Source of the DNA: Pedobacter sp. SL55
GTDB taxonomy: Bacteria > Bacteroidota > Bacteroidia > Sphingobacteriales > Sphingobacteriaceae
Assembly: GCF_026625705.1 (NCBI RefSeq)
Contig: NZ_CP113059.1
Span: 3,658,001 to 3,722,000, forward strand
Length of the DNA: 64,000 bases
Direction of reading: 5' to 3'
The notes under the pieces were generated by a model, which had not been told where the DNA came from, did no database searches, and was given only the letters and a program-made list of their open reading frames with translations. Below are positions 48,329-56,252 of the stretch, piece by piece. A program made the position numbers and the translations under genes. Numbering within the stretch: the first letter of the stretch is position 1; the number at the start of each line of letters is the position of its first letter.

Positions 48329-49447
48329 ATGAAGCCTGAAACTAATGCTATACATGCCTCTAACCTAGTTAAAGCCAGTACAGGAGACGTTACTTCTCCC
48401 ATTCATTTGTCTACCACTTATTTTAGAGGCGAAGATGGTGGCTATCCGGGTGGTCACATGTATAGTAGAGTAAGCAATCCAAATCGTTCTGCCTTAGAAA
48501 AAATAATTACTGTTTTAGAGGGCGGTGCCGATACTTGTGCGTTTTCGTCGGGCAATACTGCCGGCATGGCCATTTTCCAAGCCCTAAAACCTGGTAGTCA
48601 TATTATTGCACCAGACGACATGTATTGGGGCTTTAAAAAGCAATTGCTGACCATTTTTGCAGATACCTTAACTTTCGATTTTGTTGATTTAACAGTAGTT
48701 GAAGAAGTTGAAAACTATGTAAAAGCAAATACAGCATTGCTTTGGGTAGAAACCCCTTCCAATCCACTTTTAAAGATTTGCGACATCGAAGCATTGGGGA
48801 AAATTGCGAAAAAACATCAACTGATATTTGCCGTGGATAGTACTTTTGCCTCGCCAATTTTGCAAAACCCTATTGCCTTAGGCGCTGATATTGTGATGCA
48901 TTCTACTACCAAATACATTGGCGGACACAGTGATGTTTTAGGTGGTTCTTTAACTTTTGCGGTTAAAAATGAGTTTTTTGAGAAGATTAAAAACATTCAA
49001 GAAACTGGAGGCGCTGTGCCTTCGCCATTCGATTGCTTCTTATTGCTACGAAGTATTAAAACTTTAGCTTACCGTATTAAAGGGCACTGCGAAAATGCAG
49101 AGAAATTGGCCAGTTACTTAAATCATCATCCTAAAGTAGAAGCGGTTTTTTATCCTGGCTTAGCTTCTCATCCGCAGCATGAAATTGTAAAGAAACAAAT
49201 GCGTGGTTTTGGCGGTATGCTTTCTATTTTAACCAAAGGCGATGCCGATTTTGCCAGAAAAGTAGTGAATAGTGTTAAAGTTTTTAGTCAGGCAACGAGC
49301 TTAGGCGGTGTAGAAAGCTTAATTGAGCACCGTGCTTCTGTAGAAGGACCGACTAGCAAAACCCCACAAAATTTAATTCGTATTTCGGTAGGTTTAGAGC
49401 ATATTGATGACTTAATTGCAGATTTGGAGCAAGCGTTAGGGAGTTAA
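48329..49447 (+). CDS. Cystathionine gamma-synthase-like PLP enzyme
   Basis: A 372-residue Cys/Met metabolism PLP enzyme: SPIHLSTTYFR, YSRVSNPNRSALE, FSSGNTAGMAIFQAL, WVETPSNPLLKICDI and the Schiff-base lysine in MHSTTKYIGGHSDVLGG. It would form cystathionine from cysteine and an activated homoserine, or act as a lyase; sequence alone does not settle which. It lies next to cysM and epsC, so cysteine made there could feed it. Confidence 0.88.
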   Translation: MKPETNAIHASNLVKASTGDVTSPIHLSTTYFRGEDGGYPGGHMYSRVSNPNRSALEKIITVLEGGADTCAFSSGNTAGMAIFQALKPGSHIIAPDDMYWGFKKQLLTIFADTLTFDFVDLTVVEEVENYVKANTALLWVETPSNPLLKICDIEALGKIAKKHQLIFAVDSTFASPILQNPIALGADIVMHSTTKYIGGHSDVLGGSLTFAVKNEFFEKIKNIQETGGAVPSPFDCFLLLRSIKTLAYRIKGHCENAEKLASYLNHHPKVEAVFYPGLASHPQHEIVKKQMRGFGGMLSILTKGDADFARKVVNSVKVFSQATSLGGVESLIEHRASVEGPTSKTPQNLIRISVGLEHIDDLIADLEQALGS

Positions 49448-49587
49448 AAGTTGAAAGTCAAAAGTTAAAAGCAGTATTGTGCATAAAAGGAATCCCGTAA
49501 ATTGCGAGGCACGAAGCAATCTTACTAAGATATACGAACATCCTAAACATATCGTGATGCCAACTTGATTGGACATCGTAATGCCTT

Positions 49588-50460
49588 TTACCCAAACAAA
49601 TCGCTACTCAAATACCGATCTCCCCTATCGCAAGCAATAAAAACAATCAAGCCGCTTTCCAATTCTTCGGCTAGTTGCAAGGCACAATGCAATGCACCGC
49701 CACTGCTCATACCAGCAAAAATACCTTCTTTCCTAGCTAAAGTCCTAGCAGCTAAGGTTGCATCTTGCTGAGAAACATCCATAATTCTGTCTACTCTTTC
49801 AGGCTCATAAATCTTTGGTAAATATTCAATTGGCCATCTACGAATACCTGGAATGGATGATTCTTCTGTCGGTTGGCAACCTACAATCTGAATATCCGTA
49901 TTTTGCTCTTTCAAATATCTTGAATTTCCCATGATACTACCTGTAGTACCCATGCTACTCACAAAATGAGTAATCTTACCTTGGGTTTCTTCCCAAATTT
50001 CTGGACCTGTAGTTTTATAATGCGCCAAGTAATTATCAGGATTGGCAAATTGGTTCAGCAAAAAATAACCAGGCTGTGTTCCCTTTTCTTCTGCATAATC
50101 TCTACAAACTTCAATATTTTCTAACAAAGTAACTTTAGCGCCAAAAGCTTCCATGGTTAAGGTGCGTTCTCTGGTAGAACTTGCTGGCATTACCAACTCA
50201 ATCTCAATTCCGTAAATGGATGCAATCATGGCTAAGGCAATCCCTGTGTTTCCACTGGTTGCTTCAATCAGCTTGGTGTTTTTATCTACATCGCCTCTTT
50301 CCATCGCACTACGGATCATGTTCAATGCAGCCCTGTCTTTCACACTTCCACCTGGATTATTTCCTTCAAGCTTAGCGTAAATTTTGACGTTGGGATTGGT
50401 ATTCAGATATCTAATTTCCGCCAGTGGCGTATTGCCGATGCAATCTATAATGGTTTTCAT
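49588..50460 (-). CDS. cysM: Cysteine synthase B
   Basis: A 290-residue O-acetylserine sulfhydrylase. The PLP lysine is in NNPGGSVKDRAALNMI, the phosphate loop in TSGNTGIALA, and the substrate loop in SSMGTTGSIMGNSRYL. The QPTEESSIPGIRRWP segment is typical of CysM rather than CysK. It lies 65 bases downstream of epsC on the same strand: the two enzymes make cysteine from serine. Confidence 0.93.
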   Translation of the reverse strand: MKTIIDCIGNTPLAEIRYLNTNPNVKIYAKLEGNNPGGSVKDRAALNMIRSAMERGDVDKNTKLIEATSGNTGIALAMIASIYGIEIELVMPASSTRERTLTMEAFGAKVTLLENIEVCRDYAEEKGTQPGYFLLNQFANPDNYLAHYKTTGPEIWEETQGKITHFVSSMGTTGSIMGNSRYLKEQNTDIQIVGCQPTEESSIPGIRRWPIEYLPKIYEPERVDRIMDVSQQDATLAARTLARKEGIFAGMSSGGALHCALQLAEELESGLIVFIACDRGDRYLSSDLFG

Positions 50461-50525
50461 ATTTTTATAATTTCACAGATTAAGAGATTTCACAGATGTG
50501 ATTATCATTTATTACAGTCTAACCA

Positions 50526-51332
50526 TCAACTGCTCTTCTCCTTAATTTTAACCTCTGCCTGATGGTAAACTGTAGAACCTTCTGGAACACTCTTCGTTAA
50601 CCAAACATTCCCACCAATTACACTATGGTCTCCAATAAAGGTTTCGCCACCCAAAATGGTTGCACCAGAGTAAATAATTACATGGTTGCCAATAGTTGGG
50701 TGTCTTTTGATGTTTCGTTGTTCTTTATCTACACTTAACGCTCCCAAAGTAACGCCTTGATACAATTTAACGTGGTTGCCAATTACCGTACTTTCTCCAA
50801 TTACCAATCCCGTACCGTGGTCAATATATAAATATTCGCCAATTTCTGCTGCCGGATGAATATCAATTCCAGTTGTGGTATGTGCATATTCGGTAATGAT
50901 ACGCGGAATATGTGGCACCTCTAACAAGTGCAATTCATGCGCAAAGCGATACATCGCCACCGCAAAAAAACCAGGATAGCAGCGAATGATCTCGAACTCA
51001 CTTTGTGCCGCCGGATCTCCATCTACCAACGCCATTAAATCTGTATTTAATTTTCGGTAAATCTCTGGCAAATTTTTAAAGAAAGTATCCGCAGTTCCTT
51101 TGCTAAACGTTTTATCAGGCGATTTTGTAGATTTCAATATCAACTGGAGCTCTTCTTTCAATTCGAAAAAAATACCTTTTAATACCTCTTGATTATAATT
51201 GGAGGATGCTCCTCTTTCAGGAAAAATCAAATTTAATAACGATTGAGCCCAATTTGCAATAGTCTGATTGGAAGGCACAACCTGTTGCTGGTTTTGGCGT
51301 TGGATAATGCTATTTAGGAATGCTGTATTCAA
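50526..51332 (-). CDS. epsC: Serine O-acetyltransferase (EpsC/CysE type)
   Basis: A 268-residue enzyme making O-acetylserine from serine and acetyl-CoA. A helical N-terminal region (about 1-150) precedes a left-handed beta-helix with hexapeptide repeats: TGIDIHPAAEIGEYLYIDHGTGLVIGEST, VKLYQGVTLGALS, RHPTIGNHVIIYSGATILGG. It is the first gene of the epsC-cysM pair. Confidence 0.93.
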   Translation of the reverse strand: MNTAFLNSIIQRQNQQQVVPSNQTIANWAQSLLNLIFPERGASSNYNQEVLKGIFFELKEELQLILKSTKSPDKTFSKGTADTFFKNLPEIYRKLNTDLMALVDGDPAAQSEFEIIRCYPGFFAVAMYRFAHELHLLEVPHIPRIITEYAHTTTGIDIHPAAEIGEYLYIDHGTGLVIGESTVIGNHVKLYQGVTLGALSVDKEQRNIKRHPTIGNHVIIYSGATILGGETFIGDHSVIGGNVWLTKSVPEGSTVYHQAEVKIKEKSS

Positions 51333-51490: not shown

Positions 51491-51542
51491 AAACAAAAAA
51501 TTAATTGAAAATCAAGCATTTAATTATTTTTCAGAATTTTAT

Positions 51543-51574
51543 TTTGTATTAAAATAAAAAACACCCTATATTTG
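51543..51574 (+). promoter_or_regulatory. Promoter of the metY-metX-hom operon
   Basis: TTTG (51543-51546) and TATATTTG (51567-51574), spaced 20 bases, match the Bacteroidota -33/-7 consensus. Transcription should start near 51580, just ahead of the S-box riboswitch. Confidence 0.7.
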
Positions 51575-51627
51575 AAACATTATTTGGAACACCAAGTAAA
51601 AGTCAATTACCTAACGGTGTTGATTTA

Positions 51628-51702
51628 TAAAGAAGTGGCGAGAGACAGGCTCACAGACCCACTGGCAACCCTCAAAAAGAGAAGGTGCCAATTCCTGACC
51701 AA
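51628..51702 (+). promoter_or_regulatory. SAM-I (S-box) riboswitch
   Basis: The conserved core is recognisable: AAGTGGCGAGAGACAGGCTC (from 51631), then CCACTGGCAACC, a P3 hairpin CTC-AAAAA-GAG (51671-51681), and AAGGTGCCAATTCC (51683-51696). These match the S-box SAM-binding motif upstream of methionine genes. With high SAM it should reduce expression of the downstream met genes. Outer P1 boundaries are approximate. Confidence 0.9.
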
Positions 51703-51738
51703 ATTGCATGGTGCATTTTGGAGATATAAATTAATAAG

Positions 51739-51858
51739 ATGAAACTAATTAATTCTATTTCAAGAAACACGTTTCCCGAGCAGGTCGGCAAAACTTCTAT
51801 TATTGGCAATTGCTGCAGTATGCAATTGATGATGTGTATGTGCATTCGCATGTACTAA
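51739..51858 (+). CDS. Candidate Cys/Met-rich leader peptide
   Basis: ATG 51739 to TAA 51858 encodes 39 residues. The last 15, CCSMQLMMCMCIRMY, hold 4 Cys and 5 Met, which is far from random and mirrors classical attenuator leader peptides whose codons sense the end product. It lies between the S-box riboswitch and metY, 131 bases before metY, with alternative hairpins in between. The peptide is expected to have no function other than ribosome pausing when Cys-tRNA or Met-tRNA is short. That role is inferred. Confidence 0.65.
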   Translation: MKLINSISRNTFPEQVGKTSIIGNCCSMQLMMCMCIRMY

Positions 51859-51895
51859 AATCAAAAATCTTCCACTTGTAATTTTCTCGCAATTA

Positions 51896-51945
51896 GGAAG
51901 GTCCCGCTGAAACGGGATACGCCCCACTGACGTACCTTAACAGGT
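51896..51945 (+). promoter_or_regulatory. Alternative hairpins between leader peptide and metY
   Basis: AAGGT (51898-51902) can pair with ACCTT (51934-51938), enclosing CCCG (51903-51906) / CGGG (51913-51916). ACCT (51934-51937) can instead pair with AGGT (51942-51945). The two states exclude each other. No T-run follows, so control would be on translation or by Rho rather than an intrinsic terminator. Confidence 0.4.
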
Positions 51946-51977
51946 TCAACATTTAAACATTTCAACCTTAACTTTAA

Positions 51978-53287
<1,310 letters not shown>

Positions 53288-53343: not shown

Positions 53344-54402
53344 ATGTCTAACACCTATAAATATCCAAAAATATTCAAGCTAGAAAGCGGAAAAAAACTT
53401 CGCAATCTGGAAATTGCATATCACACTTACGGCACCTTAAATGCAAAGAAAGACAATGTAATTTGGGCTTGCCATGCGCTAACGGCAAATGCCGATGTAT
53501 TAGATTGGTGGAAAGGATTGTTCGGCACCAAAGATTTGTTCAATCCAGAAGAGCATTTTATTGTGTGTGCAAATGTTTTGGGTTCTAACTATGGTACAAC
53601 CAACCCATTAAGCGTAAACCCAGTAACTGGCCAGCCTTATTATTTGGCTTTTCCTGAGTTTACCATTAGAGATTTGGCGGCAATCCATCAAATATTAGCA
53701 GATCATTTAGGTATTAAAACGGTAAAGACTTTAATTGGTGGTTCGTTGGGTGGCCAGCAGGCTTTGGAATGGTCTATTACAGGTAAAACTGAAATCGAGA
53801 ACTTGATTTTAGTAGCTACCAACGCAGCTCACTCGCCTTGGGGAATTGCCTTTAACGAAAGTCAGCGTTTGGCCATTGCTACCGACAGAACTTTCTTCGC
53901 TAACAAACCTGATGGTGGTTTAAAGGGACTTAAAACTGCAAGAAGCATCGCTTTGCTTTCGTACCGAACCTACGAAGCTTACAACGAAACGCAGCTAGAA
54001 AGCGTAAACGATAAAGTGACCGATTTCAGAGCCTCATCTTACCAAAACTATCAGGGCGAAAAATTGTGTAAACGCTTTAATGCCTACAGCTATTGGTATT
54101 TAAGCAAAGCGATGGATAGCCATAACGTTGGCCGCGGTAGAAAAAGCATAGCTGATGCCTTGAAATTGGTAAAAGCGAATACACTTGTTGTAGGTATTGA
54201 GAACGATGTGCTCTTCCCTATTACCGAACAACAGTTTTTAGCCAACAACATTACCGATGCACAATTTGCCAGCATTAAATGCGCTTACGGCCACGACGGA
54301 TTTTTAATAGAAACAGATAAGTTAACGAACATCATTGGCACGTTCTTGAAAGAAAATGCCGCAAAAAACAAGAAAGTAATAAAGTTAAATAGAACAGCAT
54401 AG
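53344..54402 (+). CDS. metX: Homoserine O-acetyltransferase
   Basis: A 352-residue alpha/beta-hydrolase-fold acyltransferase: LEIAYHTYGTLNAKKDN, CHALTANAD, nucleophile Ser in IGGSLGGQQALEW (near residue 137), Asp in ENDVLFPITEQQ, and His in YGHDGFLIE. It activates homoserine with acetyl-CoA for MetY. It lies between metY and hom, so the operon covers the branch from aspartate semialdehyde to homocysteine. Confidence 0.95.
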   Translation: MSNTYKYPKIFKLESGKKLRNLEIAYHTYGTLNAKKDNVIWACHALTANADVLDWWKGLFGTKDLFNPEEHFIVCANVLGSNYGTTNPLSVNPVTGQPYYLAFPEFTIRDLAAIHQILADHLGIKTVKTLIGGSLGGQQALEWSITGKTEIENLILVATNAAHSPWGIAFNESQRLAIATDRTFFANKPDGGLKGLKTARSIALLSYRTYEAYNETQLESVNDKVTDFRASSYQNYQGEKLCKRFNAYSYWYLSKAMDSHNVGRGRKSIADALKLVKANTLVVGIENDVLFPITEQQFLANNITDAQFASIKCAYGHDGFLIETDKLTNIIGTFLKENAAKNKKVIKLNRTA

Positions 54403-55787: not shown

Positions 55788-56252
55788 AGGCCTTTTTTAT
55801 TGAGCCACAGATGCACAGATATTTTTATTTTCATTCTATCCTGCATCATTTTGTCTATAGTTTTTTTGAAGAGCACTAGCATTGCTACTATTTACCGAAA
55901 GTCTGGCTGTTCGTTACAACTCCTCTCCCGATATAAAATCGGGATGTGGGGTTTCCACTACTATCCAGTCTATTTAACCTAATTTTTTGTTCCAATTTAA
56001 GTTAGATTGTAATACGTTGAAAACACCCCGGTCTTCGACCACCCCTCTGAAAGAGGGGATTGGCGTGATGAAAATTCCCCTCTTTTAGAGGGGTGCCCAA
56101 CGGGCGGGGTGTTTTTTTGACTTGACTTTAGTGCACAGTGTTTACTTAATTAAACCTGATAGTAGCGAGCACGTATCCCGATTTTATCGGGAGAAGTAAA
56201 GCGAATAGGACTACAACTTCCGATAGAATACCGACATTCATTTTCTAAAAAC
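55781..56252. other. Repeat-rich intergenic region after hom
   Basis: No gene is seen. It contains an ATCTGTGGC-family half-site (55803-55822), two TCCCGAT/ATCGGGA palindromes (55926-55944 and 56176-56192), the REP-like element at 56022-56117 and a TTCCGATAG half-palindrome near 56219. Confidence 0.6.
56022..56117. repeat. REP-like nested palindrome with CCCCTCT/AGAGGGG cores
   Basis: Outer arms AACACCCCG (56022-56030) and CGGGGTGTT (56104-56112) enclose two hairpins: CCCCTCT-GAA-AGAGGGG (56042-56058) and CCCCTCTTTTAGAGGGG (56077-56093). A T-run follows at 56112-56118, so it may also terminate transcription. Confidence 0.75.

Follow-up and report, generated by a model that had tools for sequence, protein, structure and literature searches.

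A cysteine- and methionine-rich leader ORF directly behind an S-box riboswitch suggests two-signal control of metY in Pedobacter and other Bacteroidota

Riboswitches and leader-peptide attenuators are commonly regarded as two different answers to one regulatory problem. In the Mg2+/proline leader of mgtA, sensing of a ligand and translation of a leader are combined. To our knowledge, Shine-Dalgarno sequences are rare in Bacteroidota and little is known in this phylum about the regulation of sulfur genes. In Actinobacteria, leaders with runs of Cys codons precede the cys operons of Mycobacterium and Propionibacterium and cbs of Bifidobacterium; as portrayed in passages of PMC1262725, these are short ORFs with the Cys codons near the stop and without a conserved terminator hairpin, and Rho-dependent output has been proposed for them. 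The uORFC-8-2 upstream of cysS in Rhodobacterales carries conserved Cys codons in a stem, for which ribosome-mediated attenuation has been proposed (PMC8632094). P1 stems of SAM-I riboswitches can take in a ribosome-binding site, and Bacillus clausii metE places SAM-I and AdoCbl riboswitches in tandem; the passages of PMC2258182 that report both mention no leader peptide behind a riboswitch. At metA of Sinorhizobium meliloti, a SAM-II riboswitch acts on a start region far ahead of the main start codon, and a Rho-independent terminator separates the two (PMC9373788), and in TnaC a stalled ribosome keeps Rho off (PMC8092293).

An earlier note on the DNA studied here had called attenuation little described in Bacteroidota. 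This is partly right, although there are prior hints: the Bacteroid-trp motif appears in a listing for Bacteroidetes (PMC2864571), a study of Flavobacterium psychrophilum reports strong clues to attenuation by leader peptides ahead of amino-acid operons (PMC9723704), 5' UTR ORFs of B. thetaiotaomicron are reminiscent of leader peptides (PMC7366714), and bulk tables of leader genes include Bacteroidetes (PMC4833913). Among the titles, abstract openings and selected passages of the open-access literature that were searched, no paper was found that links S-box and leader peptide in Bacteroidota.

The window analysed is a 64,000-nt stretch of the genome of Pedobacter sp. SL55, whose nearest named relative among the named metY loci is Pedobacter xixiisoli. 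A covariance model and a reading of its ORFs place an S-box aptamer, a leader ORF and a MetY-type gene one after the other (alignment A1 and model R1 are described below):

51622-51732, plus strand: S-box (SAM-I) riboswitch aptamer, RF00162 (cmscan, 72.3 bits, E 5.6e-15)
51725-51732, plus strand: 3' strand of the S-box P1 stem, TATAAATT (covariance-model alignment)
51739-51858, plus strand: leader ORF of 39 codons plus stop (ATG start, kept in relatives, synonymous excess)
51811-51855, plus strand: Cys/Met-rich leader tail CCSMQLMMCMCIRMY with a C-M-C motif (sequence; tail composition of 136 leaders)
51836-51855, plus strand: hairpin A, GUAUGUGC with GCAUGUAC around an AUUC loop, inside the leader tail (helix 1 of A1)
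51869-51900, plus strand: helix B, CTTCC (51869-51873) with GGAAG (51896-51900) (A1)
51901-51918, plus strand: hairpin C, GTCCCG (51901-51906) with CGGGAT (51913-51918) (A1; model R1)
51990-53287, plus strand: metY-like Cys/Met PLP enzyme, first regulated gene (ORFs; PF01053 on both pieces)
53344-54402, plus strand: probable homoserine O-acetyltransferase (metX), second gene (Pfam: only alpha/beta hydrolase)

The aptamer match clears the RF00162 gathering score of 44.4 bits in sequence and structure, which predicts a SAM-I riboswitch. Its P1 3' strand stops 6 nt ahead of the leader ATG. The leader encodes MKLINSISRNTFPEQVGKTSIIGNCCSMQLMMCMCIRMY, with four Cys and five Met in its last 15 residues; the earlier note had this ORF right in coordinates and counts. 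By Pfam (Cys_Met_Meta_PP), the gene downstream of the leader encodes a MetY-type enzyme. Its frame is broken in the window into ORFs 51990-52592 and 52592-53287 (break region 52550-52600), whereas metY of relatives is a single open frame of about 435-485 codons; the break is either a sequencing error or a young pseudogene. The name metX is our presumption, given that Pfam reports only the hydrolase fold for this gene. Adjoining metY, window 48329-51332 holds a second Cys/Met PLP-type enzyme gene, with cysK-like and cysE-like genes on the opposite strand; by names read from their translations, these genes together with metY look like a sulfur amino-acid cluster. A Flavo-1 RNA (RF01705, 46.7 bits, minus strand) lies at 55896-55975, shortly past the third gene of the operon. 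A second known riboswitch between leader and metY was ruled out, as no Rfam family matches within 51859-51990. Bacteroid-trp (RF01692), which we take to be a Trp leader, has no match in the window at the gathering score, nor in 51500-52100 at E ≤ 10.

The arrangement extends well beyond the window. Covariance model R2, built from 20 S-boxes, calls an S-box at 203 Bacteroidota metY loci (75 + 59 + 69), and at 201 of them an ATG ORF begins between -3 and +15 nt past the S-box and ends before metY. Because the locus sets overlap in species, the leaders were dereplicated to 136 (below 85% similarity); the S-box-to-ATG offset among these has its mode at 7 nt and falls between +5 and +10 in 118. Within the genus of the window, metY is present in 94 of 99 genomes (E ≤ 1e-60), and upstream regions were taken from 70 of the 94. 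R2 finds the S-box at 69 of these 70 loci, the sole locus without being L179, and 68 of the 69 leaders have at least two Cys in their last 12 residues, 58 at least three. Common tails are CMCCCIQ, CMCCCIR and CMCCCIG, each directly before the stop codon. The 80 named loci span Pedobacter, Hymenobacter, Parachryseolinea, Spirosoma, Cytophagales and Sphingobacteriales MAGs, one Crocinitomicaceae and others; 75 carry the S-box, with at least two Cys in 74 and at least three in 67 of those, and the five S-box-less ones include Spirosoma loci. In a family sample of 40 loci picked from 100 genomes with metY, 33 have the S-box and 25 a leader with at least three Cys. The class sample (metY in 47 of 247 genomes at E ≤ 1e-70; 45 loci scanned with R2) yielded an S-box at 27 loci, 20 of them with such a leader. 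Across the class, S-box and Cys leader together are common but not universal. An apparent absence of S-boxes from many Cytophagales loci was an artefact of a GGCAACC regular expression that missed them; cmscan found the S-box in 20 of 20. At L091, L102, L112, L131, L139, L215 and L221-L223, S-box and Cys leader lie 500-1100 nt ahead of metY and probably front another first operon gene.

The last 12 residues of the 136 leaders contain 35.2% Cys and 13.2% Met, compared with 2.5% and 1.5% in the remainder, and Cys plus Met average 5.8 of the 12. At least three Cys occur there in 113 of the 136 leaders, against 3 of 2560 shuffles for an ORF in the same placement; a tail with at least three Cys arises anywhere in the shuffled region in 32 of 2560 (shuffles built from 128 loci, leaving out eight with gaps over 450 nt). 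On the sense strand, 105 of the 128 loci have a Cys-tailed ORF somewhere between S-box and metY, on the antisense strand 3. Conservation of the ORF and its tail in relatives, which the earlier note had named as one check on its reading, is thus borne out. Two marks of a leader-peptide attenuator are present: a short ORF with regulatory codons near its end, enriched in Met as well as Cys, and a downstream gene from the metabolism of the same amino acids. Fewer than three Cys in the last 12 residues are found in 23 leaders, and none in five. The window leader is among the Cys-poorer ones, with two Cys in its last 12 residues and five Met. The order and number of Cys vary (CMCCC, CCCCC, CCMCICCPCCC), which points to the codons rather than to one peptide.

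The codons themselves show constraint. In 79 of 341 pairs of related leaders, codons with a single change are synonymous in 185 of 527 cases in the leader body (expected 0.265) and in 54 of 150 in the tail (expected 0.198), suggesting mild to moderate constraint at the amino-acid level, with mild selection on the body; RNA structure may contribute to the excess in the tail.

For Pedobacter, RNAalifold was run on A1, an alignment of 39 sequences from the tail to TACGC, chosen from 55 dereplicated among 101 loci. It returned hairpin A over the tail codons, helix B and hairpin C. Hairpin A, whose pairing in the list above is hand-written while the alignment consensus has six pairs, is paired in 95.3% of cells over the 39 sequences. 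Helix B is paired in 100% of cells yet almost invariant, hence little covariation. Hairpin C, followed by a conserved TACG (51918-51921), has changes on both sides in four of its six pairs and holds most of the covariation. Overall, 96.8% of cells are paired. Cells with both-side changes number 56 against 19.8 in shuffles (0 of 500 reach 56); slid versions reach at most 17, a comparison in which the structure has the advantage of having been taken from the same alignment. Seven pairs show a both-side change, a number reached in 4 of 500 shuffles, and further pair types are not in excess over shuffles (310 of 500). No Rfam family matches this RNA. Because the tail codons overlap with hairpin A, RNA structure may explain some of the conservation seen in the tail.

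The region past the leader stop folds better than its shuffles, with a mean z of -1.78 in 53 Pedobacter loci and -1.10 in 74 others. Other clades have other folds, and several of 35 singly folded loci pair the Cys codons with downstream sequence, for example CAACAA in L133, L134 and L137. A general duplex between tail and downstream sequence was set aside, its signal being weak (mean z -0.50 and -0.70). The mutually exclusive hairpins of the earlier note (AAGGT/ACCTT versus ACCT/AGGT) can be written at this locus but are not conserved, as 12 of 101 loci have ACCT in the 25 nt that follow the conserved hairpin; the conserved pairings are instead CTTCC/GGAAG and the stem directly after it. Hairpins A, B and C are mutually compatible, and A1 contains no conserved pair of mutually exclusive helices among its 39 sequences. 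No antiterminator/terminator pair is therefore shown, and how stalling would alter output is not visible in the fold.

The note's reading that the gap lacks a T-run fits the wider set: only 4 of 101 Pedobacter-type loci (not dereplicated) have five or more T among the 10 nt that follow the final hairpin stem. An intrinsic terminator after hairpin C was rejected on this count as the general output for Pedobacter metY, and over all clades 20 of 128 loci have a terminator-like hairpin between the leader stop and metY, so that the U-tract terminator of a classical attenuator is mostly absent. Such hairpins also occur at 11 of 26 other S-box loci, and with the 20 metY loci this indicates that terminators of this kind are used in the family. 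From the end of hairpin C to metY the mean distance is 80 nt (46-120), and this linker has 21.5% C and 8.4% G (100 loci), compared with 16.3% and 16.7% upstream of 32 window ORFs, a control that includes upstream coding sequence and so makes the hint of Rho a weak one. We favour Rho-dependent or pause-based termination as the putative output, at the level of transcription and without an intrinsic terminator, the reasons being the general scarcity of U-tract terminators, the mean distance of 80 nt from the last hairpin to metY and a linker rich in C and poor in G.

Taken together, the sequence evidence makes it fairly likely that metY is under two-stage, two-signal control, with an S-box and a ribosome-mediated attenuator in series, so that the cell probably reads both SAM and the supply of cysteine and methionine before making the enzyme. 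In the first stage the S-box would sense SAM. Because the P1 stem ends 6 nt before the leader AUG, bound SAM should hinder translation of the leader, and its absence would allow translation to start. In the second, a ribosome would read the Cys/Met codons at the leader end and, when charged tRNA-Cys (and probably tRNA-Met) is short, stall there, unfold the hairpin over the tail codons and, by its position, let RNA polymerase proceed into metY. With ample sulfur amino acids, or with SAM blocking leader translation, the downstream RNA would fold and expression would fall. The earlier note had proposed sensing of SAM together with Cys/Met: the conserved Cys/Met-tailed leader stacked directly on the S-box makes two sulfur signals the natural reading, while the particular hairpin switch does not stand. 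That interpretation was thus right in outline and wrong on the hairpins, and the scope is larger than it proposed. It had included neither the position of the S-box where it could gate the start codon of the leader, nor the [R/C]-M-[R/C] motif, nor a family of SusC-type receptor loci with the same kind of leader.

L250 and L270 are the two exceptions to the placement rule. In L250 a Cys-tailed ORF is present with its ATG inside the stretch matched as S-box. In L270 there is no leader, and the ATG of metY itself lies 10 nt past the S-box, in the usual place of the leader ATG, which suggests that the S-box gates translation of whichever ORF follows. Conversely, 8 of 33 metY loci not called as S-box have a Cys-tail ORF. 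Two of the eight, from Pedobacter, had not been included in the S-box search; at the other six (L231, L237, L242, L243, L256, L229), short Cys/Met-rich ORFs stand at metY without an S-box by cmscan, so the S-box is not obligatory and the ORF can stand alone.

Other readings of the same elements were weighed. The tail might stall the ribosome as a nascent peptide that responds to a thiol, sulfide, metal or other ligand, and not through tRNA shortage. A [R/C]-M-[R/C] motif within the last 16 residues of 101 of the 136 leaders, CGA as the Arg codon ahead of Met in 42 of 44 in-frame YGN-ATG-YGN motifs, and the Cys-less leaders L283 and L289 (genus g16, same family), which end in RMR before the stop, speak for such an arrest. 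We nevertheless regard peptide arrest as unlikely: the rest of the tail is free in Cys order, number and intervening residues, the controlled genes are sulfur amino-acid genes, and YGN AUG YGY is also part of the Pedobacter RNA hairpin, which could account for the motif. More doubtful still is a second aptamer (for cysteine, homocysteine or O-acetylhomoserine, for example) formed by hairpins A-C and TACG, with the ORF incidental or secondary. The covarying stem and the TACG invariant in 39 sequences would suit it, as would the lack of a matching Rfam family and the behaviour of model R1, which has a single match in the genome of the window and likewise a single match per genome in 76 of the 201 genomes searched in the order, directly before metY where the position of metY is known. 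But R1 matches are confined to the genus except for two weak ones, while the leader occurs far beyond it; the Cys tail is kept where the RNA differs, and unpaired conserved sequence is scant for a pocket.

We consider it highly improbable that the ORF encodes a small, Cys-rich functional protein or a natural product formed by modification. The homologous leader P0001 is named 'Natural product' in UniRef but hypothetical protein at NCBI, and the former is probably a misleading automatic label; no curated family matches at cut-off (10 leaders against NCBIfam, six against Pfam; one sub-threshold lanthipeptide match, E 0.051), the single leader query searched returned three database matches, and leader length runs from about 15 to 64 codons while the position after the S-box stays fixed. 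Least credible is an S-box acting alone on metY with the Cys/Met ORF a chance product or relic. L270 and the few leaders without Cys would fit it, but the shuffled and antisense controls (3 of 2560 and 3 of 128) and the synonymous excess argue against chance. So does the singularity of the element in the genome of the window, where R1 and a CMC hairpin pattern each match at one place only. A CCC-stop pattern, which could not itself retrieve the window leader, gave 64 hits there against 25 for the reversed control; four ending in TGG (no stop) were dropped, and the 60 examined gave four ATG ORFs, none with a CDS after it.

Leaders L283, L289, L234 and L299 of genus g16 hold little or no Cys and end in RMR before a stop codon that lies inside TAGTCGTC, a stretch which by eye could pair with a downstream GACGAC. 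The g16 metY leaders L021 and L031, which are not among the 203, carry RMRM or RMR, with one and no Cys, respectively, in their last 12 residues. Cys-poor leaders of this kind count against the two-stage reading.

Set beside the described systems, the putative two-stage control would have a leader that works like the actinobacterial Cys leaders and uORFC-8-2, a likeness in function that carries no claim of common descent. As in the former, a Cys run lies near the stop of a short ORF with no conserved terminator behind it, and a Rho-dependent output is likewise proposed here. They differ in phylum and genes and in having no riboswitch in front according to the passages that describe them (PMC1262725), and the tail at metY is one of Cys plus Met with an [R/C]M[R/C] motif. 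uORFC-8-2 shares the conserved Cys codons in a stem, but it has a run of U (intrinsic terminator) and two tandem Cys codons, precedes cysS and not metY, and is described in the relevant part of PMC8632094 with no mention of an S-box. As in direct P1 control by SAM-I, the P1 3' strand lies at or next to a translation start; except in L270, however, that start belongs to the leader ORF and not to the metabolic gene (PMC2258182). S. meliloti metA resembles the locus in having a SAM riboswitch on an early start region, but its riboswitch is SAM-II, and the account of it in the abstract of PMC9373788 describes no Cys/Met leader peptide. B. clausii metE also has two serial inputs in one 5' UTR, but these are two aptamers, without a leader peptide in the passages of PMC2258182. 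Bacteroid-trp is similar as a leader-type element in Bacteroidota, but concerns another amino acid and is not matched in this region. A stalled ribosome that keeps Rho off would be shared with TnaC, and the coupling of ligand sensing to leader translation with mgtA; TnaC and mgtA are unrelated in sequence, belong to E. coli and Salmonella and respond to other ligands. Cys-rich leaders and S-boxes are each already known, and what looks new against the open-access literature searched is their joining: here riboswitch and leader are coupled in a fixed geometry ahead of metY, and this recurs across many lineages within a single phylum.

Thirty other S-box loci were compared: 4 precede metY, 8 a SusC-type receptor (named from translations; seven from the genus of the window and one from another) and 18 other genes. 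At these 18 (metH, NifS-like, peroxiredoxin-like and others, by translation), the filter used found no Cys-tailed ORF. Six of the seven SusC-type loci of the genus (L006, L010, L012, L014, L016, L017, L020) have a terminator-like hairpin after the S-box. These loci carry a second ORF further downstream, for example MKKTDELKSIAANLNACFRMRMPC followed by a stop. In L006, L012, L016 and L017 the last codon and stop of this ORF fall within the 5' arm of a hairpin with a T-run behind it (arms CCTGTTAAA and TTTAACAGGCTTTTT in L006); in L020 the ORF ends in a hairpin without a clear T-run, and in L010 and L014 it does not end in a hairpin. Within this genus, leaders of the same kind can thus also be coupled to an intrinsic terminator. 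In 141 genomes of the family there are 19 SusC-type loci, six of them also among the eight above, and 14 have an S-box in the fetched stretch; the genome of the window has no such receptor at the threshold used. An ATG ORF within 400 nt with at least three Cys in its last 12 residues occurs at 12 of the 19 (shuffles 29 of 1900, antisense 0 of 19), and one with at least one Cys and at least three Cys plus Met at 16 (91 of 1900 and 1 of 19).

These loci bring into view, as a tentative possibility to which we give somewhat less than even credence, a sulfur regulon across Bacteroidota. In such a regulon the S-box would control the leader start codon, and Cys/Met codons with the R/C-M-R/C stall motif would decide transcription, so that SAM and charged tRNA-Cys/Met would both have to be low, as in an AND gate; its targets would be metY and SusC-type outer-membrane receptors, the latter through a variant with two terminators in series. 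Should leader translation indeed be gated by the S-box, the element would be a two-input logic device occurring in nature, whose sequence of events (ligand, start codon, stall, output) can be tested; Bacteroidota would gain a sulfur-controlled gene set readable from sequence, and receptors of unknown substrate would become candidate importers of sulfur compounds. At SusC-type loci of other genera (the L361-L379 set), ORFs ending in CCC or CCCCCC are seen.
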